Shown here: piece after piece, positions 1,698 to 62,479 of the stretch
How the letters are laid out: each line of letters begins with the position of its first letter
Position numbering within the stretch: position 1 is the first letter of the stretch
Assembly (NCBI RefSeq): GCF_030418455.1
Contig: NZ_JAUHPW010000001.1
Location: 248,001-312,000 of the forward strand
Direction: 5' to 3'
DNA: 64,000 bases
Source of the DNA: Demequina litoralis
GTDB lineage: Bacteria > Actinomycetota > Actinomycetes > Actinomycetales > Demequinaceae
Notes under the pieces: model-generated
Database searches by the model: none
Seen by the model: only the letters and a program-made list of their open reading frames with translations
What the model was told of the DNA's origin: nothing
Made by a program: the position numbers and the translations under genes

Positions 1698-2624
1698 CTA
1701 CTTGCCTCCCAGGACGGTGAGGGCGCGCGGCGCGACGGTGACGGTGAGCGGCGTGGCGCCCACGAGCTCGCCGTCCGCGAAGGCGGGCGGGAGGGCCGCG
1801 CCGAGCGACCCGTCCGGCACGATCGTCACGGACTCGACCTGCTCGATGCGCACGAGCGGGTCCGTGACGTGGCTGCCGTCCCGCAGCTTCGCGAACAGCC
1901 GCACGATGTCCCGCTTCGACATGCCGTCGGCGGTCACCAGCTCGAGCCGGCCGTCGGTGACCGAGGACTCCGGGGAGATCACCAGCCCCCCGCCGAAGAC
2001 CGAGGCGTTCGCGATCGCGACGAGCGTGCAGCGCATCGTCCTCTCGCGGCCATCGGCCGTCACCCGCACCCCGTAGGGCCGGAAGCGGGGCACCTCGCGC
2101 GCGGTGGCGACCTTGTACTTGAGGGGGCCGCGCGGGAACGAGATCGCGCGCGCGTAGGACGCGACGGCGGCGTCCAGGCCAGCCGACAGGACCGCGCCGA
2201 AGTAGCGCGGGCTCGCCGGCTCCTCGATGGACCCGCCCTCGACCTTGCCCACGTCGACGCGCATCGTGTCGCCGCGCAGCCCGGCCTCGATGCGGGTGAC
2301 CGCGGCCGGGATGTCGTGCCGCGGCAGGCCGACGGATGCGGCGATGTCGTCGCCCGAGCCCGCAGCGACGATGCCGAGCGGCAGGTCGGTCTCCGCGCAC
2401 ACCTGGAGGCCCAGGTGGGCCATGCCGTCGCCGCCGACCACCACGAGGGCGTCCAGGGAGGCACGATGCGCGACCGCGGCCTCGTACGACGCCGCCCAGG
2501 AGCCGCGCGACAGGTCGACGAGGTGGTGGCCGCCGGCGGCCAGCGCCGCCTTCGCCTCCGCGCCCCTGCGTGCGCCCCGCCCCGACCCCGATGTCGGATT
2601 GGTGATGATGCCGACGGTCCTCAT
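1698..2624 (-). CDS. Diacylglycerol/sphingosine kinase-like lipid kinase (DAGK catalytic domain)
   Basis: A 308-residue protein of the DagK/YegS lipid kinase family, expected to phosphorylate diacylglycerol or a related lipid at the membrane with ATP. It starts MRTVGIITNPTSGSG, the usual N-terminal nucleotide-site strand and turn. It carries the GGDG signature at residues 64-67 (here GGDGM rather than GGDGT) and GSGDD at 89-93, where most relatives have GTGND. Both substitutions touch the ATP site, so activity or specificity may differ. The ATG overlaps the tatC stop by 4 bases (ATGA), so translation is probably coupled. The TAG stop lies within the putative -10 box of helY. The domain assignment is firm; the substrate is inferred only from the family. 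Confidence 0.8.
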   Translation of the reverse strand: MRTVGIITNPTSGSGRGARRGAEAKAALAAGGHHLVDLSRGSWAASYEAAVAHRASLDALVVVGGDGMAHLGLQVCAETDLPLGIVAAGSGDDIAASVGLPRHDIPAAVTRIEAGLRGDTMRVDVGKVEGGSIEEPASPRYFGAVLSAGLDAAVASYARAISFPRGPLKYKVATAREVPRFRPYGVRVTADGRERTMRCTLVAIANASVFGGGLVISPESSVTDGRLELVTADGMSKRDIVRLFAKLRDGSHVTDPLVRIEQVESVTIVPDGSLGAALPPAFADGELVGATPLTVTVAPRALTVLGGK

Positions 2625-3400
2625 ACCGCGGGGGTCCTCCCCCGGACCGCGCGTTCGCGCAGCACACCGACGCCGCACGCGGCGAAGTACAGCGCGACCA
2701 TGGGGCCGGCCATGAAGAGCATCGTGACCGCGTCCGGCGTGGGCGTGAGCACCGCGGCCGCGAGGAAGATGAGGAAGACCGCCCAGCGCCAGCCGCGCAG
2801 CCACGTGCGGGCCTGCACCAGGCCGGTCCAGGTAAGGGCGATCATCACGACCGGGAACACGAACGCGAGGCCGAAGGCCAGGATGAGGCGCATGGCGAAG
2901 GTCATGAACGTCTGCGCGTCGAGGAAGTTCGCGGCGCCCTCGGGCGTGAAGCCGGTGAGGATCGTGATGGCGCGCGGGAACACCCACCAGCCGAACAGCA
3001 CGCCGGCGGAGAACAGCGGGATCGCGGCGCCCAGGAAGCCGAACGTGTAGCGGCGCTCGCGGCGGTGCAGACCGGGCGCGATGAACGCCCACAGCTGGTA
3101 CAGCCACCACGGCGCGCTCACGATGAGGCCGATCACCAGCGACATCTTGATCTGCATGTCGAGCGCGGTCGCCACGCCCGAGAAGTTGACGGTGACGAGA
3201 GCGTCGTCGCGCTGCGCCGCGTCGAGGACGGGACGCTGGAGTGCCTCGAAGACCGGCGTGTAGAGGAACCAGCCCGCCACCATGCCGACCGCGAGGCCGG
3301 CGACGGCGAGGACGAGTCGCTTGCGGGCCTCCCTCAGATGCTCGGCCAGCGGCATCCGAGCATCGGGATTGCCCCCGCGCGCGCTACTTCTGGCCGTCAC
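2621..3400 (-). CDS. tatC: Sec-independent protein translocase subunit TatC
   Basis: TatC is the receptor of the twin-arginine system, which recognises RR signal peptides and exports folded proteins across the cytoplasmic membrane. The 259-residue protein has about six hydrophobic segments and the typical N-terminal motif MPLAEHLREARKRL, preceded by a short NPDAR-type leader as in other actinobacterial TatC proteins. For that reason I chose the GTG at 3400, which overlaps the tatA end by 17 bases; an ATG at 3355 is the alternative. It sits directly after tatA, and no tatB is visible here. A conserved Pro-rich region follows the first helix, as in the family. Confidence 0.93.
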   Translation of the reverse strand: MTARSSARGGNPDARMPLAEHLREARKRLVLAVAGLAVGMVAGWFLYTPVFEALQRPVLDAAQRDDALVTVNFSGVATALDMQIKMSLVIGLIVSAPWWLYQLWAFIAPGLHRRERRYTFGFLGAAIPLFSAGVLFGWWVFPRAITILTGFTPEGAANFLDAQTFMTFAMRLILAFGLAFVFPVVMIALTWTGLVQARTWLRGWRWAVFLIFLAAAVLTPTPDAVTMLFMAGPMVALYFAACGVGVLRERAVRGRTPAV

Positions 3401-3593
3401 GCGGCTCGTCCGAGGACGACGTCGCGGGCTTGTCGGTGTCGGCGTCGGACTTCTTGTCGTCCGTGAGGGAGCTGGTCTCGTCCTTGAGGATGCGCAGCGA
3501 CTGGCCGAGCGAGCGCGCGAGCTGCGGCAGCTTCGGCGCGCCGAACAGCAGCAGCACGATCAGCAGGATGATGAGGATCTCGCGGGGTCCCAT
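3384..3593 (-). CDS. tatA: Sec-independent protein translocase subunit TatA
   Basis: A 69-residue TatA subunit that forms the pore-like assembly of the twin-arginine translocase. It has the family layout: a short N-terminus (MGPREI), one membrane helix at about residues 5-20, the FGAPKLP hinge, then an amphipathic helix (LARSLGQSLRILKDE) and a charged, disordered Asp/Lys/Ser-rich tail. A good ribosome site (AAGGAG) precedes the ATG by 6 bases. It follows pafC with a 33-base gap and precedes tatC, matching the conserved actinobacterial order. Confidence 0.95.
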   Translation of the reverse strand: MGPREILIILLIVLLLFGAPKLPQLARSLGQSLRILKDETSSLTDDKKSDADTDKPATSSSDEPRDGQK

Positions 3594-3626
3594 GATGCTC
3601 CTTAAGGCGGGGTGCTGGCGGACAGT

Positions 3627-6344: not shown

Positions 6345-6353
6345 TTCTCTCCC

Positions 6354-9038: not shown

Positions 9039-10043
9039 CTACTGCGGTCCTCTCTGGAAGAAGGCGGTGACCAGCGTATCGACGCCCAGGGCGGTCGCCG
9101 TCACATCCTGGCCCCTCAACGCGCCGCCCATCGTCCCGATTCCCAGGTCTCCCACGGCGTTCGTGCCGGAGCCGAGGATCGCGGGGGCGATGTAGGCGTG
9201 GACCTCGTCGACGAGGCCCGCGCGCAGGAAGGCCGTGGTGACGGTGCCGCCGCCCTCCACCACCACGGTACGCACCTCGCGCGCCTCGAGCGCCGCCAGC
9301 GCCTCGTGGGGGTCGTGGGAGCGGATGGCGATCGCGTTCTCGTCGTGCCAGACCTTGGCGCCGAACGTGTCGGACATCCCCATGACGGCGCGCAGGGGCT
9401 GGTGCGGCTCCGCCACGTGGGGCGGGCGAGCGGACAGGGCCGGGTCGTCGGCGCGGACGGTGCCGGTGCCCACGAGGATCGCGTCCACCTCGGCACGCAC
9501 GCCGTGCGCGTGGGCGCGTGCCTCCTCGCCGGTGACCCAGAAGCTGGTGCCGTCGGCGGCTGCGGTGCGGCCGTCGAGGGTCTGCGCCCACTTCGCGATC
9601 ACCCAGGGGCGGCCGTGCGCGACCGCGCCGAGCCAGCGCCGGTTGACCTCCCACGCGGCCCGCGAGGGCGCGTAGGTCGCGTCGATACCGCGCGAGCGCA
9701 GCACCTCTCCCCCGCCCGCGGCCAGCGGGTTGGGATCCTCGACGGCGTAGCGGACCGCGGCGACGCCGGCGCGCGTGAGGGCGTCGGTGCACGGACCGGT
9801 GCGTCCCGTGTGGGAGCACGGCTCGAGGGTGACGTACGCGGTGGCGCCCGTCACGTCGTGGCCTCTGTCCCGCGCATCGTCCAGCGCGGCGGGCTCGGCG
9901 TGCGGGGTGCCGGCGCCGCGGTGCCAGCCCTCGCCCAGGACGGTGCCGTCGGGCGCGACGAGGACGCAGCCGACGCGCGGGTTGGGGCCGTGCGCGGGGC
10001 CCCGGAGGGCGAGCTCGACGGCGCGCGCGAGATGGTCAGCGAT
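9039..10043 (-). CDS. ribD: Bifunctional diaminohydroxyphosphoribosylaminopyrimidine deaminase / reductase
   Basis: RibD performs the deamination and reduction steps of riboflavin synthesis. The N-terminal cytidine-deaminase-like domain has the zinc set H48-A-E50, C76 and C85 (numbered from the ATC proposed here), and the C-terminal reductase domain follows. The first ATG/GTG/TTG in frame is the GTG at 9854, which would delete the catalytic HAE motif. The real start must therefore lie upstream, around 10043, where an ATC codon follows a GAGG sequence at normal distance inside the end of rpe. Either ATC is the start or one base differs here: removing one C from GTGCACC would create a normal GTG start. 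About 334 residues, normal for the family. Confidence 0.88.
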
Positions 10044-10714: not shown

Positions 10715-11956
10715 GCGGCGCAGGCCCCCCGCCTTGAGCGCGGTCGCGAAGCTCGGGACCAGCGGCAGCGCGGGCAGCAGGGCCGCCTGATAGGCGTGGT
10801 AGACGTCGGGCTTGCCGGGCCACACCGTGCCGGCCGGACGGTTCTGCGGGTCGAGCTCGTGGTGCCACGAGCCGTGCTCGTGGTCGACGAGGTGGCGGTC
10901 CGCGTAGGCCCACCAGGCGGCGGCGTCCGTCGCGTAGCGGTCCTCGCCCGTGACCTGGCGGAGGGCCTCGGCGGCGTTGACGGCCTCCGCGAGGACCCAG
11001 TGCATGCGCTCGCGGACCACGGGCGCGCCGTCCCAGCCGGTGGTGTAGACGAAGCCCGGGGCGCCGTCCGCGTCCCAGCCGTCCGCGACGGCGCGGTCGT
11101 AGAGCGCCACGGCCGCCTCGCGCAGGTCGGGTGGGGAGTCCTCCCACAGCGTGAGGTCGACGCTGAGCAGGAGCCGTGCCCATTCGAGCCCGTGCCCGAC
11201 GGTCGCGCCGTAGGGCCGGAACGGGTGCGCGGGCTCGTCGCGGTGGTGCTCGAGCATGGGGCGCCACGCGGCGTCGAAGTGCTCGGGGATGCGCCAGTCG
11301 TTGTCGCGCGCCCAGCCGGCCACCCGCGCGGAGATTCGGCCGGCGCGCTCGTGCCACTCGCGCTCGCCGGTGACGTCGCCGGCGGCGAGGTAGGCCTCGA
11401 CCGTGTGCATGTTGGCGTTGACGCCGCGGTAGCGGTCGAGGCGGCGCCAGCCCGCGTCCCACTCCTCGACCGAGAGCCCCTCCTCCTCGTCCCAGAAGTG
11501 GGTGAGGGACACCTCGAGGGCGTCCTCGAGCAGCTGGCGGGCGCCCGTGACGTCGGCGGCGACGGCGGACGATGCGGCGAGCACCACGAACGCGTGGCCG
11601 TACGCCTGCTTGGTGGTCACCGTGGGGACGCCGTCGCGCATCGCGGCGTACCAGCCGTCGTGCTCGCGGTCCCGGAGCCGGCGCCGCAGGGCGCGCACGC
11701 CGTGCGCGGCCATCGCGCCGAGCGCCGCCGCGTCCGGGCCGCCGGGTGCGGGCGGCTCCGCCGCGAGCATCCCGAGCGCGGCCACGTGCGTCATGCGGCA
11801 GGTGATCCACAGCTCGACGGGGCGCTCGCGGTCGAGCCGTCCCGTCTCGGACAGCCAGCCGAAGCCGTCGTCCGTGGCCGCCCCGTGCGCGAAGCGCAGC
11901 AGGTCCGCGCGCTGCGCGGCGAGGTACGCGGGATCCCCGGGGACCGTCTGCGCCAT
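10712..11956 (-). CDS. N-acylglucosamine 2-epimerase / YihS-type sugar isomerase family protein
   Basis: A 414-residue protein of the AGE superfamily, whose members are (alpha/alpha)6 barrels that isomerise or epimerise sugars such as mannose, sulfoquinovose or N-acylglucosamine. Segments shared with the aldose-ketose isomerase branch include [12 protein letters not shown] (about 51-62), [15 protein letters not shown] (about 175), [11 protein letters not shown] (about 245), WHHELD and [11 protein letters not shown] near the C-terminus; the conserved His residues are the expected catalytic bases. The ATG at 11956 has GGAGGAG at good distance, better than an in-frame GTG at 11962. It sits between rsmB and rpe. 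The exact sugar cannot be told from sequence. Confidence 0.8.
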
Positions 11957-11996: not shown

Positions 11997-13343
11997 TCAG
12001 ACGCCGGGCTTCTCGAGGAGCGCGAGGAACATCGAGTCCGTGCCGTGGATGTGCGTCCACAGCTGGACGTGCGGCCCCTCGCCCCACATGCGCGGCGTGG
12101 TCCCGGTGACGGCCGCGACCGAGTCGCGCGCGTCGAGCTGGCGCAGCGTGGTGCCGGCGACGACGTCCCGCGTCTCGGCGAGCACGGGCGAGCACGTGAT
12201 GTAGGCGAGCAGGCCGCCGGGGGCCAGCAGCCGCTCCGCGTTGGCCAGGAGCGCCTTCTGGAGCGGCACGAGCTCGTCGAGGTCCTCGGGCTGGCGACGC
12301 CATCGCGACTCGGGGCGGCGGCGCAGCGCGCCCAGGCCCGAGCAGGGCGCGTCGAGGACGATGCGGTCGTACGTGCCGTCGTCGCCCCAGGTGGTGCCGT
12401 CGCCGGTGTGGATGGTGACGACGCCCTCGGGGACCGCGCGGGTGGAGCGGCGCACGAGGTCCGCGCGGTGCTGGTGGAGCTCGACGGCGTCGAGGGTCGC
12501 GGCGCCGTCGGCGGCGAGCGCGCCGAGCAGCGCCGCCTTCCCGCCGGGGCCGGAGCAGAGGTCGAGCCAGCGCTCGCCGGGCTCGACCGGCTGGGCGGCG
12601 GCGAGGGCTGCGGCGACCACCTGGCTGCCCTCGTCCTGGACGGCCGCGGTGCCCTCGGCGACCGCCTCGAGGTCGCCCGGGCGTCCGCCCGGGAGCACGA
12701 CCGCGTACGGCGAGTACTCGCCCGCCTCTCCCCCGGCCTGCTGGATGAGCTCCTCGCGGTCGACCAGGCCCGGGCGGGCGACGAGCGTGACGCGGGCGGG
12801 CGAGTTGTCGGACTCGAGCAGCGCGCTCACCTCGCCGCTGTGGCCGTCGGCGGCGAGCGCGTCCTCGAGCTCGCGCACCACCCACTCGGGATGCGAGTGG
12901 CGGGTGGCGACGGCCTGGCGCGAGTCGCCCGATGCGACGACGGCGAGCCAGGCGTCGGCGTCGCGCTCGGTCACGCGGCGCATCACGGCGTTGGCCAGCT
13001 TCGAGGCGCCCTGGCCGCGCTCGCGGCGCACCTGGGACACGGTCTCGTTGACGGCGGCGTGCGGGGGCACGCGCATCGCGAGGTGCTGGTGGATGCCGAG
13101 CCACAGCGAGACGCGCACCTCGGGGTCGAGGTCGCGCGGGTCCCGGCCGGAGGCCTTCTCCACGATCGCGTCGTACAGGCCGCGCATGCGCAGGGTGCCG
13201 TACGCGAGCTCGGTGGCGAAGCCGGCGTCGCGGCCCTCGAGCCGCATCCGCTCGAGCAGCGACGGCATGAGCAGGTTGGCGTAGGCGCCCTCGGTCGAGA
13301 CCGCCATCACGCAGTCGTAGGCGACGTCCCGTGCGCGGCTCAT
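11997..13343 (-). CDS. rsmB: 16S rRNA m5C967 methyltransferase, NusB-domain type
   Basis: RsmB methylates cytosine 967 of 16S rRNA with SAM. The 448-residue protein has an N-terminal NusB-like RNA-binding domain (about 1-130) and a C-terminal Rossmann methyltransferase domain. The SAM site is LDLCSGPGGKAALL (about 264-277), and the two conserved cysteines of RNA m5C enzymes are in LDAPCSGLG and in YITCSPV. It overlaps the fmt stop by 4 bases (ATGA), the same fmt-rsmB linkage seen in many bacteria. Confidence 0.94.
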   Translation of the reverse strand: MSRARDVAYDCVMAVSTEGAYANLLMPSLLERMRLEGRDAGFATELAYGTLRMRGLYDAIVEKASGRDPRDLDPEVRVSLWLGIHQHLAMRVPPHAAVNETVSQVRRERGQGASKLANAVMRRVTERDADAWLAVVASGDSRQAVATRHSHPEWVVRELEDALAADGHSGEVSALLESDNSPARVTLVARPGLVDREELIQQAGGEAGEYSPYAVVLPGGRPGDLEAVAEGTAAVQDEGSQVVAAALAAAQPVEPGERWLDLCSGPGGKAALLGALAADGAATLDAVELHQHRADLVRRSTRAVPEGVVTIHTGDGTTWGDDGTYDRIVLDAPCSGLGALRRRPESRWRRQPEDLDELVPLQKALLANAERLLAPGGLLAYITCSPVLAETRDVVAGTTLRQLDARDSVAAVTGTTPRMWGEGPHVQLWTHIHGTDSMFLALLEKPGV

Positions 13344-39506: not shown

Positions 39507-39580
39507 TTCTCCCCCTTTGCTCCGGGAATGCACTTGCTATCGGCGCCGGGCGCCTTGAACTCAAACGGAGTGGTGATATC

Positions 39581-46281: not shown

Positions 46282-47975
46282 CAGTGCGCCTCCGCCCCGG
46301 CCAGCTGACCACGACCGCACAGGCGGTTGAAGTCCTCGAGGTGGTGGCACATCTCCGCACCCGTGTCGTACGAGATGCGCCCCTGCTTCACCAGCGCCGC
46401 GAGGTGCTGGTCCATCGTCTGCATGCCCTGCTTGGAGCCGGCCTGCAGCATCGAGTAGATCTGGTGGGTCTTGCCCTCACGAATGAGGTTGCGGATGGCC
46501 GGCGTGGCGACCATGACCTCGACCGCGACCGCACGGCCCGGGCCGTCGGACCTCTTGCACAGCGCCTGGCACATCACGCCCTGGATCGCCGTGCCGAGCT
46601 GCGTGCGCACCTGCGCCTGCTGCTCCGCCGGGAACACGTCGATGATGCGGTCGATCGTCTGCGCCGTGTCCTGCGTGTGCAGCGTCGCGAACACGAGGTG
46701 GCCGGTCTCCGCGGCGGTCAGCGCGACCTGGATGGTCTCCAGGTCGCGCATCTCACCGACCAGGATGACGTCCGGGTCCTGACGCAGCACGTGCTTGAGC
46801 GCGTTCTTGAAGGACAGCGTGTCCGCGCCCACCTCGCGCTGGTTGACCAGCGACTTCTTGTGCTTGTGCAGGAACTCGATCGGGTCCTCGACCGTCATGA
46901 TGTGGTCGGAGCGCTGGCGGTTCACCAGGTCGATGAGCGACGCGAGCGTCGTCGACTTGCCCGAGCCCGTCGGACCGGTGACCAGCACCAGGCCACGCGG
47001 CTTCGACGCGAAGCCCGCGACGGCCGGCGGGATGCCCAGCGCCTCGAGCGGCTTGATCTCGTAGGGGATCACACGGAACGCGGCACCCAGCGACGAGCGC
47101 TGCATGTAGAGGTTGACGCGGAAGCGCGCCTCCCCCACCACCGCGTACGAGAAGTCGAGCTCGAGGTGCTCCTCGAACGTCTCGCGCTGCTTCTGCGTGA
47201 GGATCGAGTACAGCGTGCGCTGGAGGCCCTCGGGGTTGAGCTTGCCGAAGCCCTCGAGCGGCGTGAGCTCGCCGTCGAGACGCACCATCGGCGGCGCGCC
47301 CGTCGTGACGTGAAGGTCGGACGCGCCGAGCTTCATCATCTCGCGCAGCGCCACGTTGATGTCGAGGTCGGCCTCGTCGCGCGAGGTCGTCATGCCGACG
47401 CGCTTCCCCACCGGCTGCGCCTTCGGACCAGGAGCCGCCTGCGTCGCGGCCGGCGCGGGCGCCTGCTTCGGCTCCTCCTTCACCGGGGCGGGGTCAGGAG
47501 CCGGCATGAACGCGCCCTGCGTCTGCGCGACCGCGGCGAAGGCCGCGGCGGCGTCGCTCGGCGGCACCGGCGCCTGCATGGCGGTCGGGGCGCCCGCGGG
47601 AGGCGCCACCGGGGACGATGCGGCGGGTACCTGCGGCGCGCCGGCGGCCGGCGTCGCGGGCTGGCCCGTGTACGGACGTCGCTCCTCGAGGAACGGCGCG
47701 CGGCGCATGGCCTGCGACGGGGTCTGGTGGAGCGAGGGCGACACCGGCGACGCGGCGGCGGGCACACCCGGAGCCGGAGTCTGCGGAGCCACCGGCGCAC
47801 CGGCGGCGGGAGCACCCGCACCGGGAGCCGCGGGAGGAGTCACGGGCGCCTGAGGCTGCACAGGGGCGGACGCCTGAGCAGGCGCCTGCGGCTGGGCCGC
47901 GGCGGGCCGCTCGGGCATAACGCCATCCTGGGGCGCGAACCATGCGCCACCATCGGGCTGAAACTCCGAAGTCAT
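46281..47975 (-). CDS. pilT: Type IV pilus retraction ATPase PilT with a Pro/Ala-rich N-terminal extension
   Basis: PilT powers pilus retraction, required for twitching and DNA uptake in known systems. The ATPase core (about residues 205-560) has LGASDLHVTTGAPPMVRLDG, Walker A GPTGSGKST at 334-342, the Asp box MTVEDPIEF, Walker B and the His box, and a C-terminal region near AIRNLIREGKTHQIYSMLQ (the AIRNLIRE motif that is diagnostic for PilT). The first about 190 residues are a low-complexity Pro/Ala/Gln linker, which ordinary PilT (about 345-370 residues) lacks. The ATG at 47975 has GGGAGGA 3 bases upstream. An exact GGACGATGCG copy lies in the linker. Confidence 0.93.
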   Translation of the reverse strand: MTSEFQPDGGAWFAPQDGVMPERPAAAQPQAPAQASAPVQPQAPVTPPAAPGAGAPAAGAPVAPQTPAPGVPAAASPVSPSLHQTPSQAMRRAPFLEERRPYTGQPATPAAGAPQVPAASSPVAPPAGAPTAMQAPVPPSDAAAAFAAVAQTQGAFMPAPDPAPVKEEPKQAPAPAATQAAPGPKAQPVGKRVGMTTSRDEADLDINVALREMMKLGASDLHVTTGAPPMVRLDGELTPLEGFGKLNPEGLQRTLYSILTQKQRETFEEHLELDFSYAVVGEARFRVNLYMQRSSLGAAFRVIPYEIKPLEALGIPPAVAGFASKPRGLVLVTGPTGSGKSTTLASLIDLVNRQRSDHIMTVEDPIEFLHKHKKSLVNQREVGADTLSFKNALKHVLRQDPDVILVGEMRDLETIQVALTAAETGHLVFATLHTQDTAQTIDRIIDVFPAEQQAQVRTQLGTAIQGVMCQALCKRSDGPGRAVAVEVMVATPAIRNLIREGKTHQIYSMLQAGSKQGMQTMDQHLAALVKQGRISYDTGAEMCHHLEDFNRLCGRGQLAGAEAH

Positions 47976-48055
47976 GCGTCCTCCCTCGAAAATGCGCAAT
48001 TTTCTGCGCATTCCCTCCAACTATCGGCGTGAATCTACCATTCTTAAGACTTTTC

Positions 48056-49714
48056 CTATTTCACGACTCGCAGAAGTTCTTCGACGGAAGTCAGACCGTC
48101 GCAGACCTTCGCCCAGCCGTCCTCGATCAGCGTCTCCATGCCCGCGTCTCGAGCCGTCCTGCCGATCTCCGCGGACGACGCCCGCGCCACCGCGAGACGC
48201 TCGAGATCCTCGTTGACCGGCATGATCTCGTGGAGCGCGAGACGCCCCCGGTACCCCGTCTGCGAGCAGCGCGAGCAGCCCGCGGGACGGAACAGCTCCG
48301 GCAGGTGCTGGCCGTCCTCCCACCCGAACCGCTCGAGCTCGTAGCCCGTCGGCGTGTACGCCTCCTTGCAGTGCGAGCACAGGCGTCGGGCGAGTCGCTG
48401 GGCGATCACGCAGTCCACCGCGGATCCCACGAGGAAGGGCTCGATGCCCATCTCGATGAGTCGCGTGATGGCGGACGGCGCGTCGTTGGTGTGCAGCGTC
48501 GAGAGCACGAGGTGACCGGTGAGCGCCGCCTCGATCGCGATCTGCGCGGTCTCGCCGTCACGGATCTCACCGAGGAGCACCACGTCGGGGTCGGAACGCA
48601 GGATCGAGCGCAGCGCGCCGGCGAACGTGAGGCCCGCCTTGACGTTCACCTGGACCTGGTTGATGCCCGGGATCCGGTACTCGACCGGGTCCTCGACGGT
48701 GATGACGTTGATCTCGGGCCGCGACACCTGGTTGAGCGTCGCGTAGAGCGTCGTCGACTTTCCGGAACCCGTCGGGCCGGTCACGAGGATCATGCCGTAC
48801 GGCTTCACGTACGAGGTCTCGTACAGCTCGAGGTTCCGCTCGCGGATGCCCAGGTCCTCGAGGTCCATCGTCGCCGTGGAGTTGTCGAGGATACGCATGA
48901 CGACCTTCTCGCCCCACACCGTGGGCAGCGTCGCGACGCGGAGGTCGATCTTCCTGCCCTGGTGGTTGACGGAGAGGCGGCCGTCCTGCGGCTTGCGGCG
49001 CTCGGCGATGTCGATGTCAGACATGATCTTGATGCGCGAGATCACACCGTTCTGGATCGACTTGGGCGCCGCGTTCATCTCGTGGAGCACGCCGTCGATG
49101 CGGTACCGGACGCGCATGTCCTTCTCGCCCGGCTCGAGGTGGATGTCCGACGCACGGTCCTGGATCGCCTGCGTGATGAGCAGGTTGACGAAGCGCACGA
49201 TGGGCGCGTCGTCCTCGATCACGTCGCCGATCTGCGAGAGGTCGACCTCCTCCTGCTCGTCGAGAGCACCCTGGAGGTCCTTGAGCTCGGCGTCCGAGCG
49301 GCAGTAGCGGTCGATCGCCTGCATGACGTCGTCGTGCGCCGCGACCACGGGGATGACGCTCTTGCGCGTCATCGTCCGGATGTCGTCGACCGCGACCACG
49401 TTGCCCGGGTTCGACATCGCGACCTTGAGGAAGTCGCCGTCGAGCGCGATCGGCAGCGCCGCGTGACGGCGGCACACCGTGTCGGGCACGAGCGAGACGG
49501 CGGCGCGGTCGACCGGGAACTCGGCGAGCTCGACGAACTCCATGCCGACCTGCGAGGCGAGCGCGCGCACCAGCTGACCCTCGGAGATGAAACCCATCTC
49601 GACGAGCGTGCGGCCCAGGGACTGACCCCGTGCCTGCTGCTCGTCGATGCCCTCGGCGAGCATCTCCTCGGTGAGCGCACCATCCTCCAACAGGATGGTC
49701 CCCAGCTGCTTCAT
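48056..49714 (-). CDS. pilB: Type IV pilus extension ATPase PilB
   Basis: PilB powers pilus extension. The 552-residue protein has an N-terminal GspE-N/MshEN domain (about 1-140, LGTILLEDGALTEEMLAEGI), Walker A GPTGSGKST at 313-321, the Asp box ITVEDPVEYRIPGINQVQV, Walker B LLGEIRDGETAQIA, and the four-Cys zinc site CSHC...CSRC near residues 457-495 that is characteristic of PilB. It is the first gene of the pilus operon, with GAGGGGG before the ATG and a -10 box further up. Confidence 0.94.
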   Translation of the reverse strand: MKQLGTILLEDGALTEEMLAEGIDEQQARGQSLGRTLVEMGFISEGQLVRALASQVGMEFVELAEFPVDRAAVSLVPDTVCRRHAALPIALDGDFLKVAMSNPGNVVAVDDIRTMTRKSVIPVVAAHDDVMQAIDRYCRSDAELKDLQGALDEQEEVDLSQIGDVIEDDAPIVRFVNLLITQAIQDRASDIHLEPGEKDMRVRYRIDGVLHEMNAAPKSIQNGVISRIKIMSDIDIAERRKPQDGRLSVNHQGRKIDLRVATLPTVWGEKVVMRILDNSTATMDLEDLGIRERNLELYETSYVKPYGMILVTGPTGSGKSTTLYATLNQVSRPEINVITVEDPVEYRIPGINQVQVNVKAGLTFAGALRSILRSDPDVVLLGEIRDGETAQIAIEAALTGHLVLSTLHTNDAPSAITRLIEMGIEPFLVGSAVDCVIAQRLARRLCSHCKEAYTPTGYELERFGWEDGQHLPELFRPAGCSRCSQTGYRGRLALHEIMPVNEDLERLAVARASSAEIGRTARDAGMETLIEDGWAKVCDGLTSVEELLRVVK

Positions 49715-49790: not shown

Positions 49791-50633
49791 CTAATTCAAC
49801 ACATCACGCAGAGAATTTCCCATTTCCGCAATAGGGGCGGTGCGTCCCGTCATGAGTCGTACCTGCTCAGCGGCCTGATGGAGCAGCATCCGCTCACCTC
49901 CGATCGCAATTCCCCCAAAACTAACAAATCGGATACTTAACGGGGTGACAATAGGCTGATAAACGACGTCGAGAAGTGCCGCGCCCTCCCGAATTCCGGA
50001 AAGGGACGATGCGATCCGCTCCCCCGCATCGGCCGGCACGGTGGACACGACGACGTCCGCGAGGGGCATCACGGAGGGGATCTCCTCGAGGGTGACGAAG
50101 CGCGGCGTCACGCCCATCTTGGTGGCGGCGCGCAGCAGCCCGCCGGCGCGCCCACGCGACCGCACGGCCACATACGGCGCCGTCACGCCGAGCGCACCGA
50201 GCGCCGCCATCGCTGAGGTGGCCGTCGCTCCCCCGCCGATGATGAGGCCGGACGATGCGCGGGTCACCCCGGCCTCGCCGAACGCGGCCTGCACGCCCCA
50301 GACGTCGGTGTTGGCGCCCACCAGCTGGCGCGAGCCGCCGATGTCCTGGACCAGCACGGTGTTGACCGCCCCGACCAGCTTCGCCATCGACTCGACGAAG
50401 TCCATGAGCGGGACGGCCTCCACCTTGAGAGGCATCGTCAGCGACAGCCCGGCCCACGCATCGTCCATCCCCTCGAGGAAGGACGCGAGGCCCCCGGACT
50501 CGACGTCGTACGTGTCGTACTCCCAGTCGAGCCCGAGCGCGCGGTACGCCGCCCGGTGCAGCACGGGCGACAGCGAGTGCGCGATCGGGTGCCCGAGCAC
50601 GCCCGCGCGACGCGGGCCGGAGGTCGCCGTCAC
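49791..50633 (-). CDS. aroE: Shikimate dehydrogenase
   Basis: AroE reduces 3-dehydroshikimate to shikimate with NADPH. The 280-residue protein has the substrate motif GHPIAHSLSPVLHRAAY (about 12-28), the catalytic Lys in LSLTMPLKVEA (about 63-73), the Asn-Asp pair region GAVNTVL and GANTDVWG, and the NADP loop IIGGGATATSAMAALGALG (about 125-143). The GTG at 50633 is 1 base after mltG. Its last about 170 bases are clearly AT-richer than the rest of the gene, at the border with the pilus cluster. Confidence 0.94.
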   Translation of the reverse strand: MTATSGPRRAGVLGHPIAHSLSPVLHRAAYRALGLDWEYDTYDVESGGLASFLEGMDDAWAGLSLTMPLKVEAVPLMDFVESMAKLVGAVNTVLVQDIGGSRQLVGANTDVWGVQAAFGEAGVTRASSGLIIGGGATATSAMAALGALGVTAPYVAVRSRGRAGGLLRAATKMGVTPRFVTLEEIPSVMPLADVVVSTVPADAGERIASSLSGIREGAALLDVVYQPIVTPLSIRFVSFGGIAIGGERMLLHQAAEQVRLMTGRTAPIAEMGNSLRDVLN

Positions 50634-50634
50634 G

Positions 50635-52228: not shown

Positions 52229-54893
52229 GCGCCGCCACGGTGGCGCGCACGGCCTCGAGGGCCGCGCCGATCTGCGCCGGGTCCTGGCCGCCGCCCTGCG
52301 CGAGGTCCGGCTTGCCGCCGCCGCCACCGCCCAGGACGGACGATGCGGCCTTGACGAGGTCGCCGGCGCGCAGGCCCGCGTCGCGCGCGCCCTGGTTCGT
52401 GGCGATCACGATCTGCGGGCGGCCGTTGAAGGCACCGGCGATCGCGACCACGGCGGGCGCGGCGTCGCCGAGGCGGCCGCGCACGTCCGTGACGAGCGTG
52501 CGCAGGTCGTCGCCGTCGGCGGCGTTGGTGGACTCGTGCGTGACGACGCGGACGCCCGCGACGTCGACGGACCTGCCCACGAGCTCGCCGGCAACCTGCT
52601 GCATCGCCTGCTGGCGGTAGCCCGACAGCAGCTTCTCCGTCTCGGCGAGGCGCTCGAGGAGCTTCTCGACGCGGCCCTTGAGCTCGCCCGGCTGCACCTT
52701 GAGCGTGGTGGTGAGCTCGGACACGAGCGCGCGCTCGGCGGCGAGCTTCTGGAACGCCTCGATGCCCACGGTGGCCTCGATGCGGCGCGAGCCCGAGCCG
52801 ACGGACGACTCGCCCGTGAGGGCGACCATGCCGACCTGGCTCGAGTGCTCGACGTGCGTGCCGCCGCACAGCTCGCGCGACCACGGGCCGCCGATCTGGA
52901 TGACGCGCACCGTCTCGTCGTAGGTCTCGCCGAACAGCGCGACGGCGCCCCACTCCTTCGCCTCGGGCAGCGTCATGTACTGCGCGGACACGCCCAGGTC
53001 CTTGCGGATCGCGCGGTTGGTGACCTCCTCGATCTCGGAGCGGGTCTCGGCGGACAGCGCCGAGGGCCACGAGAAGTCGAGGCGCAGGTAGCCGGGCTTG
53101 TTGTACGAGCCGGACTGCAGCGCGTCGGGGCCGAGCACCTCGCGCAGCGCAGCGTGGAGGATGTGCGTGCCCGAGTGCGCCTGGCGGGCGCCGATGCGCC
53201 ACTCGGGGTCGACCTCGGCCGACACGGCGTCGCCCTGGGCGACCTGGCCCTCGACCACGCGCGCGGTGTGCACGATGAGCCCCTTGATGGGGCGCTGCAC
53301 GTCGATGACCTCGAGCGTGCCGTGCGCCGAGCGGATGGTGCCCGAGTCCGCCTCCTGGCCGCCGGATTCCGCGTAGAACGGGGTCTGCGGGAGGATCACC
53401 TCGACGGTCTCGCCCTCGGAGGCGACCGGCACGGTCACGCCGTCCTTGATGAGCGCCGTGATCTCGGTGGCGGTGGTGAGCTCCTCGTACGCACGGAACT
53501 CGGTGGCGCCCTCGTCCTCCTTGATGCCCTGGTAGACGCCGACGTCCGCGTGGCCGCCCTTCTTGGCCTTCGCATCGGCCCGGGCGCGCTCCTTCTGCTC
53601 CTTCATGAGCTCGCGGAACTTCGCCTCGTCGACCTGGACGCCCTGCTCGGCCGCCATCTCGAGCGTGATGTCGATCGGGAAGCCGTACGTGTCGTGGAGC
53701 GTGAAGGCGTCGGCACCGGACAGCGCGGGCGTGCCGGCCTCCTTGGCCTTGCCGACCGCGACGTCGAAGATCGTGGTGCCCTGCGCGAGGGTGCGGCGGA
53801 ACGCGTCCTCCTCGGTGTACGCGACGGCCTCGATCTTCGCGCGGTTGGTCTCGAGCTCGGGGTAGCTGGCCTTCATCGCCTCGAGCGACACGGGCAGCAG
53901 CTCGGGCATGGTGCGCTCGTCGACGCCGAGCAGCTTCATCGCGCGCACCGAGCGCCGGATGAGGCGGCGCAGCACGTAGCCGCGGCCCTCGTTGCCGGGG
54001 GTGACGCCGTCGCCGATGAGCATGAGGGACGAGCGGACGTGGTCCGCGATGACGCGCATGCGGACGTCGTCGGTCGCGTCCGCGCCGTACGTGCGGCCCG
54101 AGAGCTCCTGCGCCTTCGCGATGACGGGGAAGACCTCGTCGATCTCGTACATGTTGGCGACCCCCTGCTTGAGGTACGCCAGGCGCTCCAGGCCCGCGCC
54201 GGTGTCGATCGCCTTCTGGTCGAGCTCGCGGATGAGCGGGTAGTCCTTGCCGGCGCCCTCGCCGCGCAGGAACTGGTCGAACACGAGGTTCCACACCTCG
54301 AGGTAGCGGTCGCCGCCCGGGTCGACGGTGCCGCCCACGGCCTCGGGGCCGAACTCGGGGCCGCGGTCGTAGTGCCACTCGGCGCACGGGCCGGCGGGGC
54401 CGGGCTGCCCGGTGTCCCAGAAGTTCTCCTCGCGCGTCAGCTTGACGATGCGCGACGGGTCGACGCCGACGCTCTTGAGGTGGCTGAACGCGGCCTCGTC
54501 CTCGTTCCAGATGGTCACCCAGAAGCGCTCGGGGTCGAAGCCGAGGTTGCCCTCGGACTCGGGGCCGGTGAGGAACCGGAAGGCGAGGTCGATCGCGCCT
54601 TCCTTGAAGTAGTCGCCGAACGAGAAGTTGCCGAGCATCTGGAAGAACGTGCCGTGGCGGGTGGTCTTGCCGACCTCCTCGATGTCCTTGGTGCGGATGC
54701 ACTTCTGGACCGAGGCGATGCGCGGGTGCGGCGAGGTGTCCGTCCCGATGATGTACGGGATGAACGGCACCATGCCGGCGACCGTGAACAGCAGCGACGG
54801 GTCGGGTGAGACGAGCGAGGCGCTCGGTGCGATGTGGTGGTCGTTCTTCGCGAAGTAGTCCACCCACCGGTTGGCGATCTCAGAGGTCTGCAT
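52221..54893 (-). CDS. alaS: Alanyl-tRNA synthetase
   Basis: AlaS charges tRNA-Ala. The 890-residue protein has the class II catalytic domain (MQTSEIANRWVDYFAKNDHH, RTKDIEEVGKTTRHGTFFQMLGN, later EVWNLVFDQF), the tRNA-recognition domain, the editing domain with zinc motifs HSGTHILH and CGGTHVEHSSQ (about 560-680), and a C-terminal DHHA1/C-Ala domain (LGGGGGGKPDLAQGGG near the end). All expected parts are present. The ATG at 54893 lacks a strong ribosome site. One exact GGACGATGCG copy lies near the 3' end. Confidence 0.97.
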   Translation of the reverse strand: MQTSEIANRWVDYFAKNDHHIAPSASLVSPDPSLLFTVAGMVPFIPYIIGTDTSPHPRIASVQKCIRTKDIEEVGKTTRHGTFFQMLGNFSFGDYFKEGAIDLAFRFLTGPESEGNLGFDPERFWVTIWNEDEAAFSHLKSVGVDPSRIVKLTREENFWDTGQPGPAGPCAEWHYDRGPEFGPEAVGGTVDPGGDRYLEVWNLVFDQFLRGEGAGKDYPLIRELDQKAIDTGAGLERLAYLKQGVANMYEIDEVFPVIAKAQELSGRTYGADATDDVRMRVIADHVRSSLMLIGDGVTPGNEGRGYVLRRLIRRSVRAMKLLGVDERTMPELLPVSLEAMKASYPELETNRAKIEAVAYTEEDAFRRTLAQGTTIFDVAVGKAKEAGTPALSGADAFTLHDTYGFPIDITLEMAAEQGVQVDEAKFRELMKEQKERARADAKAKKGGHADVGVYQGIKEDEGATEFRAYEELTTATEITALIKDGVTVPVASEGETVEVILPQTPFYAESGGQEADSGTIRSAHGTLEVIDVQRPIKGLIVHTARVVEGQVAQGDAVSAEVDPEWRIGARQAHSGTHILHAALREVLGPDALQSGSYNKPGYLRLDFSWPSALSAETRSEIEEVTNRAIRKDLGVSAQYMTLPEAKEWGAVALFGETYDETVRVIQIGGPWSRELCGGTHVEHSSQVGMVALTGESSVGSGSRRIEATVGIEAFQKLAAERALVSELTTTLKVQPGELKGRVEKLLERLAETEKLLSGYRQQAMQQVAGELVGRSVDVAGVRVVTHESTNAADGDDLRTLVTDVRGRLGDAAPAVVAIAGAFNGRPQIVIATNQGARDAGLRAGDLVKAASSVLGGGGGGKPDLAQGGGQDPAQIGAALEAVRATVAARA

Positions 54894-56190: not shown

Positions 56191-57513
56191 TCACCTTCCC
56201 AGCAGCCGCCGGATGGTGCCGAGCCGCTCTCCCAGCGCACGCTCGTAGCCGTGCTCGGTGGGCTGGTAGTAGCGCGCCCCGCGCAGCGTCTCGGGCAGGT
56301 ACTCCTGCGCGGCCACGCCGTGGGGCGCGTCGTGCGCGTACTGGTAGTCCTTGCCGTGCCCGATCCGCTCGGCGCCCGCATAGTGCGCGTCCCGCAGGTG
56401 CTCGGGCACCACGCCCGCCTTGCCGGCCCGCACGTCCGCGATCGCGGCGTCGATCGCGCGGTACGAGCGGTTCGACTTCGGCGCGCTCGCGAGGTACGTG
56501 GTCGCCTCGGCGAGGACGATCCGCCCCTCGGGCATGCCGATGAAGCTCACCGCGTCCGCGGCGGCCTGCGCGATCACCAGCCCCTGCGGGTCCGCCATGC
56601 CGATGTCCTCGGCCGCGAGGATGACGAGGCGGCGGGCGATGAAGCGCGGGTCCTCCCCCGCCACCACCATCCGCGCGAGGTAGTGCAGCGCGGCATCGAC
56701 GTCGGAGCCGCGCACGGACTTGATGAAGGCGCTGATGACGTCGTAGTGCTGGTCGCCCGACTTGTCGTACGCGACCAGGGCGGCGTCCATCGTCGCCTCG
56801 GCGATCTCCGCGGTGATGACCCCGGACGGCCCCGCGGCACCCGCGATCGACTCGAGCAGCGTGAGCGCCTTGCGCGCGTCCGCCCCGGCGACGCGCAGGA
56901 TGTGGTCGCGCGCCGCATCGTCCAGCGTCACGGAGCCGCCGAGGCCGCGGGTGTCGGCGACGGCCCGCTCGAGCAGCGCCGAGATGTCGGTCGAGGCGAG
57001 CGGCTGCAGCACCAGCAGCAGCGAGCGTGACAGCAGCGGCCCGACGACCGAGAACGACGGGTTCTCGGTGGTCGCGCCGATGAGCGTCACCCACCTGTTC
57101 TCGACCGCGGGCAGCAGCGCGTCCTGCTGCGAGCGGGTGAAGCGGTGGATCTCGTCGATGAAGAGGACCGTCTCGCGCTCGCCGGTGGCGATGCGGCGCT
57201 TCGAGTCGTCGACCACCGCGCGCACGTCCTTGACGCCCGCCGTGACGGCGGACAGCTCGACGAAGCGCCGGTTGCCCGCGACGAGGTACGCGAGCGTGGT
57301 CTTGCCCGTGCCGGGCGGCCCCCACAGCACCACGGACGTCGCGGGAGCGTCCTCCCCGATGAGCCGGCGCAGCGGCGACCCCTCGGTCAGCAGGTGCGTC
57401 TGACCCACGACCTCGTCGAGGCCGCGGGGACGCATGCGCACCGCGAGCGGGGCGTTGCCGAGGGTCTCGGGCACGCCCGACGCGTCGGTGCGCGCCGCGT
57501 CGAACAGATCCAT
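56191..57513 (-). CDS. rarA: Replication-associated recombination AAA ATPase RarA (MgsA)
   Basis: RarA acts at stalled replication forks with SSB. The 440-residue AAA+ protein has Walker A GPPGTGKT at 65-72, Walker B VLFIDEIHRF at about 116-125, sensor 1 LIGATTENPSFSV and the C-terminal tetramerisation region (LARMVVAGEDPRFIARRLVILAAEDIG). All motifs are intact. The ATG at 57513 has TACGCT 6 bases upstream and no ribosome site. It often neighbours rpsD and alaS in Actinobacteria, as here. Confidence 0.95.
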   Translation of the reverse strand: MDLFDAARTDASGVPETLGNAPLAVRMRPRGLDEVVGQTHLLTEGSPLRRLIGEDAPATSVVLWGPPGTGKTTLAYLVAGNRRFVELSAVTAGVKDVRAVVDDSKRRIATGERETVLFIDEIHRFTRSQQDALLPAVENRWVTLIGATTENPSFSVVGPLLSRSLLLVLQPLASTDISALLERAVADTRGLGGSVTLDDAARDHILRVAGADARKALTLLESIAGAAGPSGVITAEIAEATMDAALVAYDKSGDQHYDVISAFIKSVRGSDVDAALHYLARMVVAGEDPRFIARRLVILAAEDIGMADPQGLVIAQAAADAVSFIGMPEGRIVLAEATTYLASAPKSNRSYRAIDAAIADVRAGKAGVVPEHLRDAHYAGAERIGHGKDYQYAHDAPHGVAAQEYLPETLRGARYYQPTEHGYERALGERLGTIRRLLGR

Positions 57514-57585: not shown

Positions 57586-57595
57586 CGCATCGTCC
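57586..57595 (-). repeat. Intergenic copy of the GGACGATGCG repeat
   Basis: An exact copy in the gap between the CHAP-protein gene and rarA, 11 bases from a strong terminator hairpin. Confidence 0.8.
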
Positions 57596-57681: not shown

Positions 57682-58782
57682 TCAGCTCACCTTGAGCTCG
57701 CGCCACTTCGCGAAGTCGGACGGGCGGTACGACGCGTGGATGTCGACCATCGCGCGCTTGCGGTAGAAGACGCCGCGCCCGGTCTCGCCGGTGCCGGAGG
57801 TGGTGTTGCCCTCGACCAGGTAGATCGAGTCGCCGGAGACGTGATCGACGATGCCGGTGTGCGTCGGCCCGCGGTACGGGTACCAGTCCACGAGGACGAC
57901 GTCGCCCTTCTTGATCTCGCCCGCGGTCGGGGTCGTGTCGAGGACGCCGGACTTGCGCAGCGCCGTCACGTACGCGTCGAAGTGCTTCTTGTAGGGCACG
58001 CCGTTGGCGTAGTCGGCGCGATCGAAGACCCACTCCACGAAGACGTGGCACCAGGCGTAGTTCCCGTCGATCCAGTCGTTGTAGCGGTTGTTGCGCCACG
58101 ACGGCTCGCGGTAGCCCACCTGGCTGTGGGCGATGTCGAGGATGCGGGCGGTGTCGAACACGCCGCCGACGCTCAGGAAGCGCTCGGGCGTCCACGCGTA
58201 GGTGCCGTTGATCCGGACCTGCCACCAGCCGTTGCGCTCGATGCGCGTGAAGCGGCCCATGGTGCCGAAGGCCGCGGTGGTCTTGACCGCGTAGGAGTTG
58301 CTCGGGCCCGAGCGCAGCTGGAGGTTCGCGCCGAGGGTGCCGACGGGCACCGCGTCCCACTTGGGCTTGTCGGACGTGAAGAACTTGCTCGGCGCCCATG
58401 CCGTGGTGCCGCCGGCCTTGATCTGGACCCAGCGACCCTCGGTCTTGCCGGTGGCCTTCACCTTCGCGCCCTTGTACGCGACCATCTTCACGCGGTTCGA
58501 GTTGGACGGGCCGTTGCGGAGCTTGAGCGCCGTGCCGGTGACCCACAGGTTCTGGCCGACGCTGATCTCGGTTCGGATCGGCGTGACCGCGGACACGCTC
58601 GTGTCGATGGACGATGCGGTCGCGGCGGACGATGCGGCGGTCGCCGGCGTCGCGCTCACGACGGCGGCCGCGACGATCGCGGCGACGATGCCGGTCGCGC
58701 GTACTGCCGTCCGGTTCCTCGTGATGGTCAAGGTCGGTCTCCTCGTCCCGGACGGGACCGTTGGCAGCCCGTCCGTGGTCAT
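57682..58782 (-). CDS. Secreted SH3-CHAP peptidoglycan hydrolase-like protein
   Basis: A 366-residue exported protein. The N-terminus is a signal peptide with a hydrophobic core (ATGIVAAIVAAAVVSATPATA, about 30-50), with cleavage likely after ATA. Two bacterial SH3 domains follow (about 75-145 and 146-215; GTALKLRNGPSNSNRV and GANLQLRSGPSNSYAV), then a CHAP/NlpC-type amidase domain (about 220-340). The Cys is in NYAWCHVFVEWVF, His in GPTHTGIVDHV and Asn in VEGNTT. It probably trims cell-wall peptides. The ATG at 58782 follows GGGAGGGA. Two exact copies of the GGACGATGCG repeat lie in the codons just after the signal peptide (ASSAATASS). Confidence 0.88.
   Translation of the reverse strand: MTTDGLPTVPSGTRRPTLTITRNRTAVRATGIVAAIVAAAVVSATPATAASSAATASSIDTSVSAVTPIRTEISVGQNLWVTGTALKLRNGPSNSNRVKMVAYKGAKVKATGKTEGRWVQIKAGGTTAWAPSKFFTSDKPKWDAVPVGTLGANLQLRSGPSNSYAVKTTAAFGTMGRFTRIERNGWWQVRINGTYAWTPERFLSVGGVFDTARILDIAHSQVGYREPSWRNNRYNDWIDGNYAWCHVFVEWVFDRADYANGVPYKKHFDAYVTALRKSGVLDTTPTAGEIKKGDVVLVDWYPYRGPTHTGIVDHVSGDSIYLVEGNTTSGTGETGRGVFYRKRAMVDIHASYRPSDFAKWRELKVS
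58609..58636 (+). repeat. Tandem pair of GGACGATGCG copies
   Basis: Exact copies at 58609-58618 and 58627-58636, 8 bases apart, in the linker after the signal peptide of the CHAP protein. Both read Ala-Ser-Ser on the coding strand. Confidence 0.8.
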
Positions 58783-61225: not shown

Positions 61226-61231
61226 GCGGCG

Positions 61232-62479
61232 ATGTCCGCCACCGCCCCTGCCACGATCGCCTCGATCCGCCGGCGCTTCGTCGCGCTCACTGCGCTGCGG
61301 TGGCTGCCCACGGGCTTCGTGGTCCCGGTGACGGTCCTGCTGCTGCGCGAGCGGGGGCTCGACCTGCCGACCATCGGCCTCATCGTCGCGCTCTACAGCG
61401 CCGCGACGCTGGTGCTCGAGCTGCCCACGGGCGGCCTCGCCGACGTCGTGGGACGCCGCCCCGTGCTCGCGACCGCGGCGCTCGTCGCCGCGGTGTCCAG
61501 CCTCACGCTCGCCTTCGGGAGCGGCGCGCTCGTGCTGGCGCTCGGCTACCTCCTGGGCGGCGTCGCCCGGGCGCTCGACTCGGGACCGCTGCAGGCATGG
61601 TTCGTCGACCGCACCCACGAGGTGGACCCCGACGCCCCGCTGCGCACCGGGCTGTCCCGCGCGGGCGTCGCCGAGTCGGTCGCGCTCGCGGCCGGCGCCC
61701 TCGCCGGCGGCGGGCTCGTCGCGATCTCCCCCCTGCCCACGAGCGGCGACAGGCTGGTGGCGCTGTCGACGCCGTTCCTCGTCGCGGCCGCGCTGTCCGT
61801 GGTGCACGCGGCGCTCGTGCTGGTGTGGGTCCGCGACCCGGCCCGGACCACGGAGACCCCGTCCCCGGGGACGATGCGGGGGGTGGGCACGACCATCGCC
61901 TCCGGCCTGCGCCTCGCGCGGACCCACCCGGCGCTCCGGCGGATCCTGCTGCTGACGGCAGCGGTGGGCGCGGCCCTGTCCGGCCTCGAGCTGCTCGCGC
62001 CGCCGCGGTTCGCCGCGCTGCTCGGCGGCGAGTCCGCCGCGGCGGGCGCGTACGCGGTGCTGGTGACCGCGGGCTTCCTGGGCTCGGCGTCCGGCTCGGC
62101 CCTCGCGCCCGTGGTGGCCCGCCTCACGCGCGGGCCATCGCGTGCGGCGCTCGTGGGGGTCCTCGGCGCGGCCGTCGCCCTCGCGGCGGTGGCGCTGCCG
62201 GCGCCTCTCGCCGCCGCGGTCGCGTTCGTCGCCTTCTACGTCCTGCTGGGCATCGCGGTGCCGCTGGTCGAGGAGCTCACGCATGCCGCCGCAACGTCCG
62301 GGCAGCGCGCCACCGTGCTGTCGCTCAACTCGATGGCGATGCAGGGCACCGCGATCGTCACGACCGCGGGCCTGGGCGTGCTCGCGGGAGCCACGTCGAG
62401 CGCGGCCGCGCTGTGGCTGCCAGCAGCGGTGCTCGCGGTCGGCGCGCTGGCGCGCGCGCGGTGGCCGCGCCTCAGTTGA
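61232..62479 (+). CDS. Major facilitator superfamily transporter
   Basis: A 415-residue MFS protein with about twelve hydrophobic segments and the loop 2-3 signature GGLADVVGRRPVLATAALVAA (about 67-87; the MFS motif A, split over the second and third helices). The size and sequence fit drug/H+ antiporter-like exporters of the DHA1 type; the substrate is unknown. The ATG follows the MMPL stop by 6 bases without a strong ribosome site, so translation is probably coupled. Its end overlaps the convergent LysR gene by 8 bases. Confidence 0.85.
   Translation: MSATAPATIASIRRRFVALTALRWLPTGFVVPVTVLLLRERGLDLPTIGLIVALYSAATLVLELPTGGLADVVGRRPVLATAALVAAVSSLTLAFGSGALVLALGYLLGGVARALDSGPLQAWFVDRTHEVDPDAPLRTGLSRAGVAESVALAAGALAGGGLVAISPLPTSGDRLVALSTPFLVAAALSVVHAALVLVWVRDPARTTETPSPGTMRGVGTTIASGLRLARTHPALRRILLLTAAVGAALSGLELLAPPRFAALLGGESAAAGAYAVLVTAGFLGSASGSALAPVVARLTRGPSRAALVGVLGAAVALAAVALPAPLAAAVAFVAFYVLLGIAVPLVEELTHAAATSGQRATVLSLNSMAMQGTAIVTTAGLGVLAGATSSAAALWLPAAVLAVGALARARWPRLS

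Follow-up and report, generated by a model that had tools for sequence, protein, structure and literature searches.

Why should a single 10-nucleotide word, GGACGATGCG, recur 26 times within 64 kb of the chromosome of the actinomycete Demequina litoralis? The window in which this was noticed, that is, the whole stretch of DNA that was analysed, covers positions 248001-312000 of contig 1 (64,000 nucleotides) in a genome of 3.02 Mb assembled into 22 contigs and 99.98% complete. The original prediction, made from the letters of the window, guessed correctly at an actinobacterial source and had put the word forward as a candidate DNA uptake sequence, a proposal that is supported by the counts, strand balance and species dialects described below, and for which the label ‘candidate’ remains appropriate. 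Our best reading, to which we assign a probability of about 0.8, is that GGACGATGCG forms the core of a Demequina DNA uptake sequence. To the extent of the literature searched, it would be the first such candidate in a monoderm phylum: consistent with the earlier statement that no uptake sequence was known in Actinobacteria, none was found for Actinobacteria or Gram-positives in the open-licence literature (preprints excluded). The decisive new result is the existence of species-level dialects of the word.

All 26 exact copies were recovered in the window at the coordinates and on the strands originally given (Table 1), against a mean of 0.81 and a maximum of 3 in 100 dinucleotide shuffles. 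Across the whole genome, GGACGATGCG is present in 1564 copies, 793 forward and 771 reverse, compared to five copies (2 forward and 3 reverse) of the reversed word used as a control. Further statistics were obtained for a 416-kb sample of the 3.02-Mb genome, consisting of the window, 17 other stretches and the stretch containing comEC, in which 337 genes were called with a simple script, so that all densities within and between genes are rough. The word ranks first among all 10-mers of this sample (201 copies), and its 189 copies in 400 kb compare to 5.8 to 10.9 expected under Markov models of orders 2 to 4.

The counts are far from expectation within genes as well. Coding sequences of the sample contain 144 copies, evenly split between sense and antisense (72 each), versus a mean of 15.0 and a maximum of 22 in 40 synonymous shuffles that kept the proteins and the total codon use fixed. 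As had been claimed, the commonest in-gene readings are DDA in the sense and ASS in the antisense orientation, but R-I-V is used too, with 28 antisense copies in phase 0 versus 9.8 that already result from codon shuffles. Between genes, the word is 3.2-fold denser than within them (1.26 versus 0.39 per kb). The excess of GGACGATGCG lies at the DNA level, spanning several reading frames and reaching its highest density between genes.

The 14:12 strand balance originally noted in the window is found locally elsewhere too (chi-square of 9.3 on 18 degrees of freedom for 18 segments holding copies), and no strand bias linked to replication was seen, either overall (793:771) or within segments. The spacing of the copies is approximately exponential, that is, random (coefficient of variation 1.03). 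Ten pairs in the 416 kb are closer than 60 bp, and the six inverted ones among them are all intergenic. The description of the flanks as unconserved holds in part: they vary and do not delineate a dispersed repeat, but G is preferred at positions +10, +12 and +13 (counting the first motif base as +0). The longer word AGGGACGATGCG is present in 23 copies in 400 kb, versus 0.2 to 0.3 predicted by the Markov models. Among the 18 loci sampled besides the window, one island, L017 (contig 1, positions 450001-470000), lacks the word altogether, with 0 copies in 20 kb versus 10.2 expected (Poisson P of 4e-5, or approximately 7e-4 after correction for 18 loci). This locus has a GC content of 0.634 and encodes a phage integrase, a set consisting of an Hma-type helicase, a methylase and an ATPase, and a DpdE-like helicase. 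An Orf5/HEC-06-like protein is encoded in the same motif-free stretch as the integrase and the defence genes, and at the start of the locus lies a gene that, judging by its sequence, we take to resemble glutamine synthetase.

To place the word in its taxonomic context, we compared the genome with 43 others from the genus and three more from the family (44 genus and 47 family genomes). In 15 of the 44 Demequina genomes, GGACGATGCG is present in 711 to 1564 copies, and in the remaining 29, in 10 to 235; outside the family, the maximum among 361 sampled genomes of the order is 102. Most of the species poor in GGACGATGCG contain a sister word, which emerged when 8- to 10-mers were counted de novo in sampled stretches totalling 9 to 351 kb per genome. 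Altogether, 36 of the 44 genomes bear a dialect: GGACGATGCG (the A dialect) in 15, GGCCGATGC plus a variable base (the C dialect) in 18, GGACGATGC(C) in one and CCCGACGCTG in two. The signal is weak in two genomes (G011 and G012), and no dialect word was detected in six, for which 29 to 80 kb each were sampled (G004, G033, G034, G036, G039 and G043, with the G036 genome being just 85% complete). CGATGC is common to all dialects except CCCGACGCTG, which has this core only in part. Among named species, D. rhizosphaerae and D. maris represent the A-G form of the word, and D. flava and D. activiva the C dialect.

The individual words include GGCCGATGCG (G001, G002, G015, G030 and G041), GGCCGATGCC (for instance, G007, G025 and G029), GGCCGATGCT (for instance, D. 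flava, G005) and GCCGATGCGC (G027), and the last base is mixed in several genomes, such as G003, G010, G016, G031 and G038. In D. sediminis (G022), GGACGATGC (28 copies versus 2.6 expected) and GACGATGCC (30 versus 3.5) are both enriched, so the dialect word of this species is probably GGACGATGCC. The G037 word CCCGACGCT lies inside GCCCGACGCTGTGG, alignable to the extended form of the window genome, GGACGATGCGGTGG. Whole-genome counts of GGCCGATGC range from 584 to 2018 in 18 genomes that are not rich in the A word (reversed control, 44 to 110), whereas those of CCCGACGCTG are 663 in G037 and 209 in G026, with the remaining 45 genomes of the family at 1 to 51; in the 80 kb sampled from G026, CCCGACGCTG is not among the top words. 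The same 80 kb (L158-L161) contain overlapping GCGAACGGTACGG-type words in eight to nine copies each, which points to a longer repeat that is not the dialect word. Some genomes hold two words: G017 is rich in both the A word (927 copies) and the C word (664), and the A-rich G006, G008, G013 and G042 carry 447 to 488 copies of the C word. All seven dialect samples exceed their own codon shuffles and are strand-balanced, and six are clearly denser in the word between genes, D. sediminis being hardly so (0.31 versus 0.27 per kb). In three motif-free genomes, the counts fall within their own codon shuffles.

The dialects vary in a manner related to the tolerance of the word within a single genome. 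Relative to a motif-masked third-order Markov model, one-mismatch copies in the window genome are in 3.3-, 4.1- and 3.0-fold excess at positions 1, 2 and 10, respectively, and changes at positions 5 to 8 reach only 0.2- to 1.3-fold; at position 3, A to C alone is in excess (24 versus 7.2). Positions 3 and 10, at which the main dialects differ, are thus among those where the genome itself tolerates changes. Motif models fitted by expectation-maximization were abandoned after drifting, in several groups, to the periodicity of coding sequence, and the core-anchored excess relative to motif-free genomes gave no information for G032 and G037.

The history of the dialects was traced on a tree built from PilB at 24 loci, in which the placement of D. 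sediminis, a very long branch, is unsure. The A dialect requires four changes on this tree, compared to a mean of 8.1 after shuffling, with as low a number in 2 of 500 shuffles, and at least three of the four are forced by well-supported branches. Dialect is thus clustered and inherited, though with several switches, or else the pilus genes have moved. The pilus operons of Demequina (L035-L100) seemingly fall into two kinds by the identity of PilM, PilN, PilO and the minor pilins, and either kind is found with A as well as C dialects. In C-dialect species, the orthologous counterparts of motif sites in the window genome carry the species' own word in 4 of 45 cases (2/10 in G031, 1/12 in G005, 1/5 in G016, 0/12 in G025 and 0/6 in G007) and exact GGACGATGCG in 0 of 45; the former is consistent with dialect change in place. 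The nearest named relatives by PilC are D. sediminis and D. rhizosphaerae (93%). For D. rhizosphaerae, five of seven copies are exact in each direction (3.3 and 2.7 expected from the flanks), and from three further A-dialect relatives to the window genome, four of five (1.2 expected). These numbers are too small for a claim; individual sites turn over.

How could such a word accumulate? We propose biased uptake, whereby the word would build up because word-bearing DNA is taken up and recombined more often. A type IV pilus would preferentially bind DNA with the species' own word, by way of a pilin or another surface protein that is strict in reading the CGATGC core and lenient towards the outer bases; the pilus would then retract, ComEA and ComEC would pass one strand into the cell, and DprA and RecA would recombine it. 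The word might thereby act as a self-tag favouring gene exchange among kin, and a change of receptor specificity could slowly shift the whole genome to a new dialect. The traits of uptake sequences that are found in Demequina include an enriched short word in both orientations throughout the genome, dialects sharing a core, intergenic enrichment with inverted pairs, depletion in DNA regarded as recently acquired (one island) and the presence of pilus, ComEC and DprA genes. In line with the type IV pilus with PilT that the original prediction named, the window encodes a pilus operon, in which PilT is assigned by position; the genes for ComEA and ComEC adjoin on contig 22, and ComEC, PilC and DprA are each found in 46 of the 47 family genomes. 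This machinery is a necessary background for the uptake model rather than specific evidence for it.

Several observations weigh against an uptake sequence. The competence genes are just as present in motif-free species, and the occurrence of the motif therefore cannot be predicted from gene content. The core GMCGATGC exceeds the third-order model 1.3- to 2.9-fold even in motif-free genomes, and with four motif-free or weak genomes as the baseline, the tolerance pattern is blurred, to 1.7-, 3.2- and 1.3-fold at positions 1, 2 and 10 alongside 1.6 and 1.7 at positions 3 and 7. When copies of the window genome are followed to their orthologous places, 1 of 17 is exact in D. sediminis (1.5 expected from the flanks) and 4 of 18 in the three further A-dialect relatives (2.6 expected), with more mismatches in these four genomes than the flanks predict. 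No report on uptake or transformation in Demequina was found in the literature searched. Furthermore, selection at the DNA level for the site of any genus-specific protein would produce many of the same statistics; the role in uptake is argued by analogy.

The search for a receptor falls on the same side of the balance. A pilin family unlinked to the pilus operon (G000:C19:138414-138812, L234; alignment A1) has a mature length of approximately 126 residues and two conserved cysteines, and many of its members end in WCVxLxHPxG..PGVRFD..GYVExAxC. Full-length matches outside the pilus operon are present in 32 of the 44 genus genomes, including the motif-free G004, G033, G034 and G043, whereas none was found in the motif-bearing G002, G006, G007, G013, G016, G022, G027, G032, G040 and G042, some of which have partial or shifted matches. 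The presence of this family does not track the motif. Its member in G039, a genome without the word, is devoid of the conserved glutamate in the N-terminal motif; in the weak genome G011, it is the residue preceding this glutamate that is changed. Scanning for residues associated with dialect yielded one perfect column in the unlinked pilin (Ile/Val; 12 A-dialect versus 12 C-dialect genomes) and three in PilB (11 versus 9 genomes, partly other ones). The association thus singles out no pilus protein and, with PilB having more perfect columns than the pilin, we claim no receptor. A profile search of solved structures returned 22 sequences, whose names mark them as pilins or pseudopilins of other kinds, none of them called ComP. 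Locus L285 (G032:C12:6501-9200) contains three adjacent frames that each combine a membrane stretch with a headgroup resembling that of pilins and are free of the usual prepilin motif.

The observation that competence genes do not predict the motif would sit comfortably with another explanation, namely, that the word is bound by a chromosome-organising or nucleoid protein, with selection for chromosome structure maintaining the word and the specificity of the protein drifting between species. DNA-level selection, occurrence on both strands, genome-wide spread and absence from the island would also follow. We nevertheless consider this unlikely, given the random spacing, the lack of strand bias and the several related species without the word; besides, site-specific chromosome proteins are not known to have nearly as many sites as there are motif copies here. 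The enrichment of a methyltransferase or restriction-modification target through methylation-linked mutation or repair bias, as proposed for HIP1 in cyanobacteria, appears highly improbable: a contiguous, asymmetric site of 10 bases with a weak further flank preference is unlike known restriction sites, for which avoidance is more usual than enrichment, and graded tolerance at the outer positions is not expected of an enzyme site.

Being short, abundant and spread genome-wide, the word could also be likened to polar chromosome motifs such as KOPS or Chi, but the balance of the strands in the window genome, both overall and within segments, and in all seven dialect samples rules these out, as had been argued from the window, and leaves them with virtually no credibility. 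The peptides DDA (127 versus 69.8 by composition) and ASS (101 versus 47.2) are about twofold in excess, with the motif's own copies counted in, as might be seen if the word simply followed from protein sequence, codon use or base composition. Such an origin is rejected by the codon shuffles, in which proteins and codon use are fixed, and by the higher density between genes, just as a dispersed mobile repeat is rejected by the variable flanks; the related species without the word speak against both, and we regard either origin as next to impossible.

Table 1. Positions of the exact GGACGATGCG copies and of the pilus operon genes in the 64-kb window
Feature	Positions	Strand	Remarks
GGACGATGCG copy	2032..2041	-	exact match
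GGACGATGCG copy	9873..9882	-	exact match; intergenic (rough gene call)
GGACGATGCG copy	11567..11576	+	exact match
GGACGATGCG copy	12356..12365	+	exact match
GGACGATGCG copy	17668..17677	-	exact match
GGACGATGCG copy	17869..17878	+	exact match
GGACGATGCG copy	20831..20840	+	exact match
GGACGATGCG copy	24631..24640	+	exact match
GGACGATGCG copy	24844..24853	-	exact match
GGACGATGCG copy	26457..26466	-	exact match
GGACGATGCG copy	29751..29760	-	exact match
GGACGATGCG copy	29895..29904	-	exact match
GGACGATGCG copy	31837..31846	+	exact match; intergenic (rough gene call); direct pair with 31871..31880
GGACGATGCG copy	31871..31880	+	exact match; intergenic (rough gene call)
GGACGATGCG copy	35273..35282	-	exact match
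GGACGATGCG copy	36127..36136	-	exact match
GGACGATGCG copy	47613..47622	+	exact match; within PilT-like gene
GGACGATGCG copy	50004..50013	+	exact match
GGACGATGCG copy	50250..50259	+	exact match
GGACGATGCG copy	50457..50466	-	exact match
GGACGATGCG copy	52338..52347	+	exact match
GGACGATGCG copy	56914..56923	-	exact match
GGACGATGCG copy	57586..57595	-	exact match
GGACGATGCG copy	58609..58618	+	exact match; direct pair with 58627..58636
GGACGATGCG copy	58627..58636	+	exact match
GGACGATGCG copy	61869..61878	+	exact match
PilO	36785..37660	-	Pfam, 21.9 bits versus cut-off of 22
PilN, by position	37660..38448	-	no Pfam match
PilM	38445..39533	-	Pfam (scanned as 38445-39506)
Prepilin peptidase PilD	39581..40363	-	Pfam
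PilX-like, by position	40364..41911	-	no family match
Minor pilin (N_methyl), PilW by position	41922..42596	-	N_methyl match
PilV-like large minor pilin (N_methyl)	42589..44421	-	below PilV cut-off
Type IV pilin (N_methyl)	44517..44948	-	Pfam
PilC platform protein	45046..46350	-	relatives of 58-93% in 46/47 family genomes (fragmented in G010 and G037)
Second T2SSE ATPase, located between pilB and pilC; assigned as PilT by position	46281..48020	-	Pfam
PilB-type ATPase (T2SSE + MshEN), putative uptake pilus motor	48056..49714	-	Pfam

If GGACGATGCG and its sister words are indeed uptake sequences, natural competence would be indicated for a genus for which no report of it was found, and the trait would be shown to evolve repeatedly by an unrelated Gram-positive case in which a single genus has several dialects. 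Demequina would then be a genus in which the joint switching of receptor and word becomes visible, and whether dialects cause or follow speciation would become testable. Rather tentatively, self-recognising uptake with species-level dialects may have had an independent origin in monoderm Actinomycetota, represented by Demequina and perhaps by Kineosporia, in which case barriers to gene flow based on uptake sequences would be convergent among systems of pilus-based transformation and not peculiar to two proteobacterial families. In Kineosporia sp. R_H_3 and A_224, 20-kb loci (L105 and L109) contain 12 and 9 copies of CCCGGACGGC, and the whole genomes (G408 and G409) 1261 and 1229, in strand balance, with 202 and 210 copies of the reversed word. 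There are 377 copies in K. babensis (control, 214) and 219 in a Cellulomonas (control, 76), the latter indicating that the control is not strict. Possibly, CCCGGACGGC is another uptake sequence in Kineosporia.

Among known abundant words, HIP1 of cyanobacteria is short and very abundant genome-wide, as is the Demequina word, but HIP1 is palindromic, whereas the Demequina word is non-palindromic and has dialects. Micrococcus luteus belongs, like Demequina, to the Actinomycetota but differs in that Flp/Tad pilus genes are required for its transformation (PMC4322843); neither ‘uptake sequence’ nor ‘uptake signal’ appears as a term in the main text of that paper. In the part of the Pasteurellaceae account drawn upon here, the uptake signal sequence (USS) is a highly enriched word of 9-12 nt with Hin- and Apl-type dialects, uptake is pilus- and ComEC-based, and the receptor itself is only predicted (PMC12616744). 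Demequina likewise combines a highly enriched short word with dialects and with pilus and ComEC genes, the word and the phylum being unrelated. The DNA uptake sequences (DUS) of Neisseriaceae, of which species-level dialects are a known hallmark, are described in the sections of Frye et al. (2013) used here as built around a CTG core that is conserved, numbering 3269 and 2245 copies in two genomes and forming inverted pairs at terminators between genes, with five genomes of the family lacking an obvious word (PMC3630211); they are read by the minor pilin ComP (PMC3630211, PMC12040237). The Demequina word, a candidate uptake sequence, is unrelated to DUS, GC-rich and hosted by a monoderm actinomycete. 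Nevertheless, as far as these sources extend, it is similarly a short, high-copy word (1564 in a Demequina genome) found in and between genes, with intergenic inverted pairs, dialects around a conserved core (CGATGC in place of CTG) and some relatives with none, so that the match in kind to the Neisseriaceae dialects is close.

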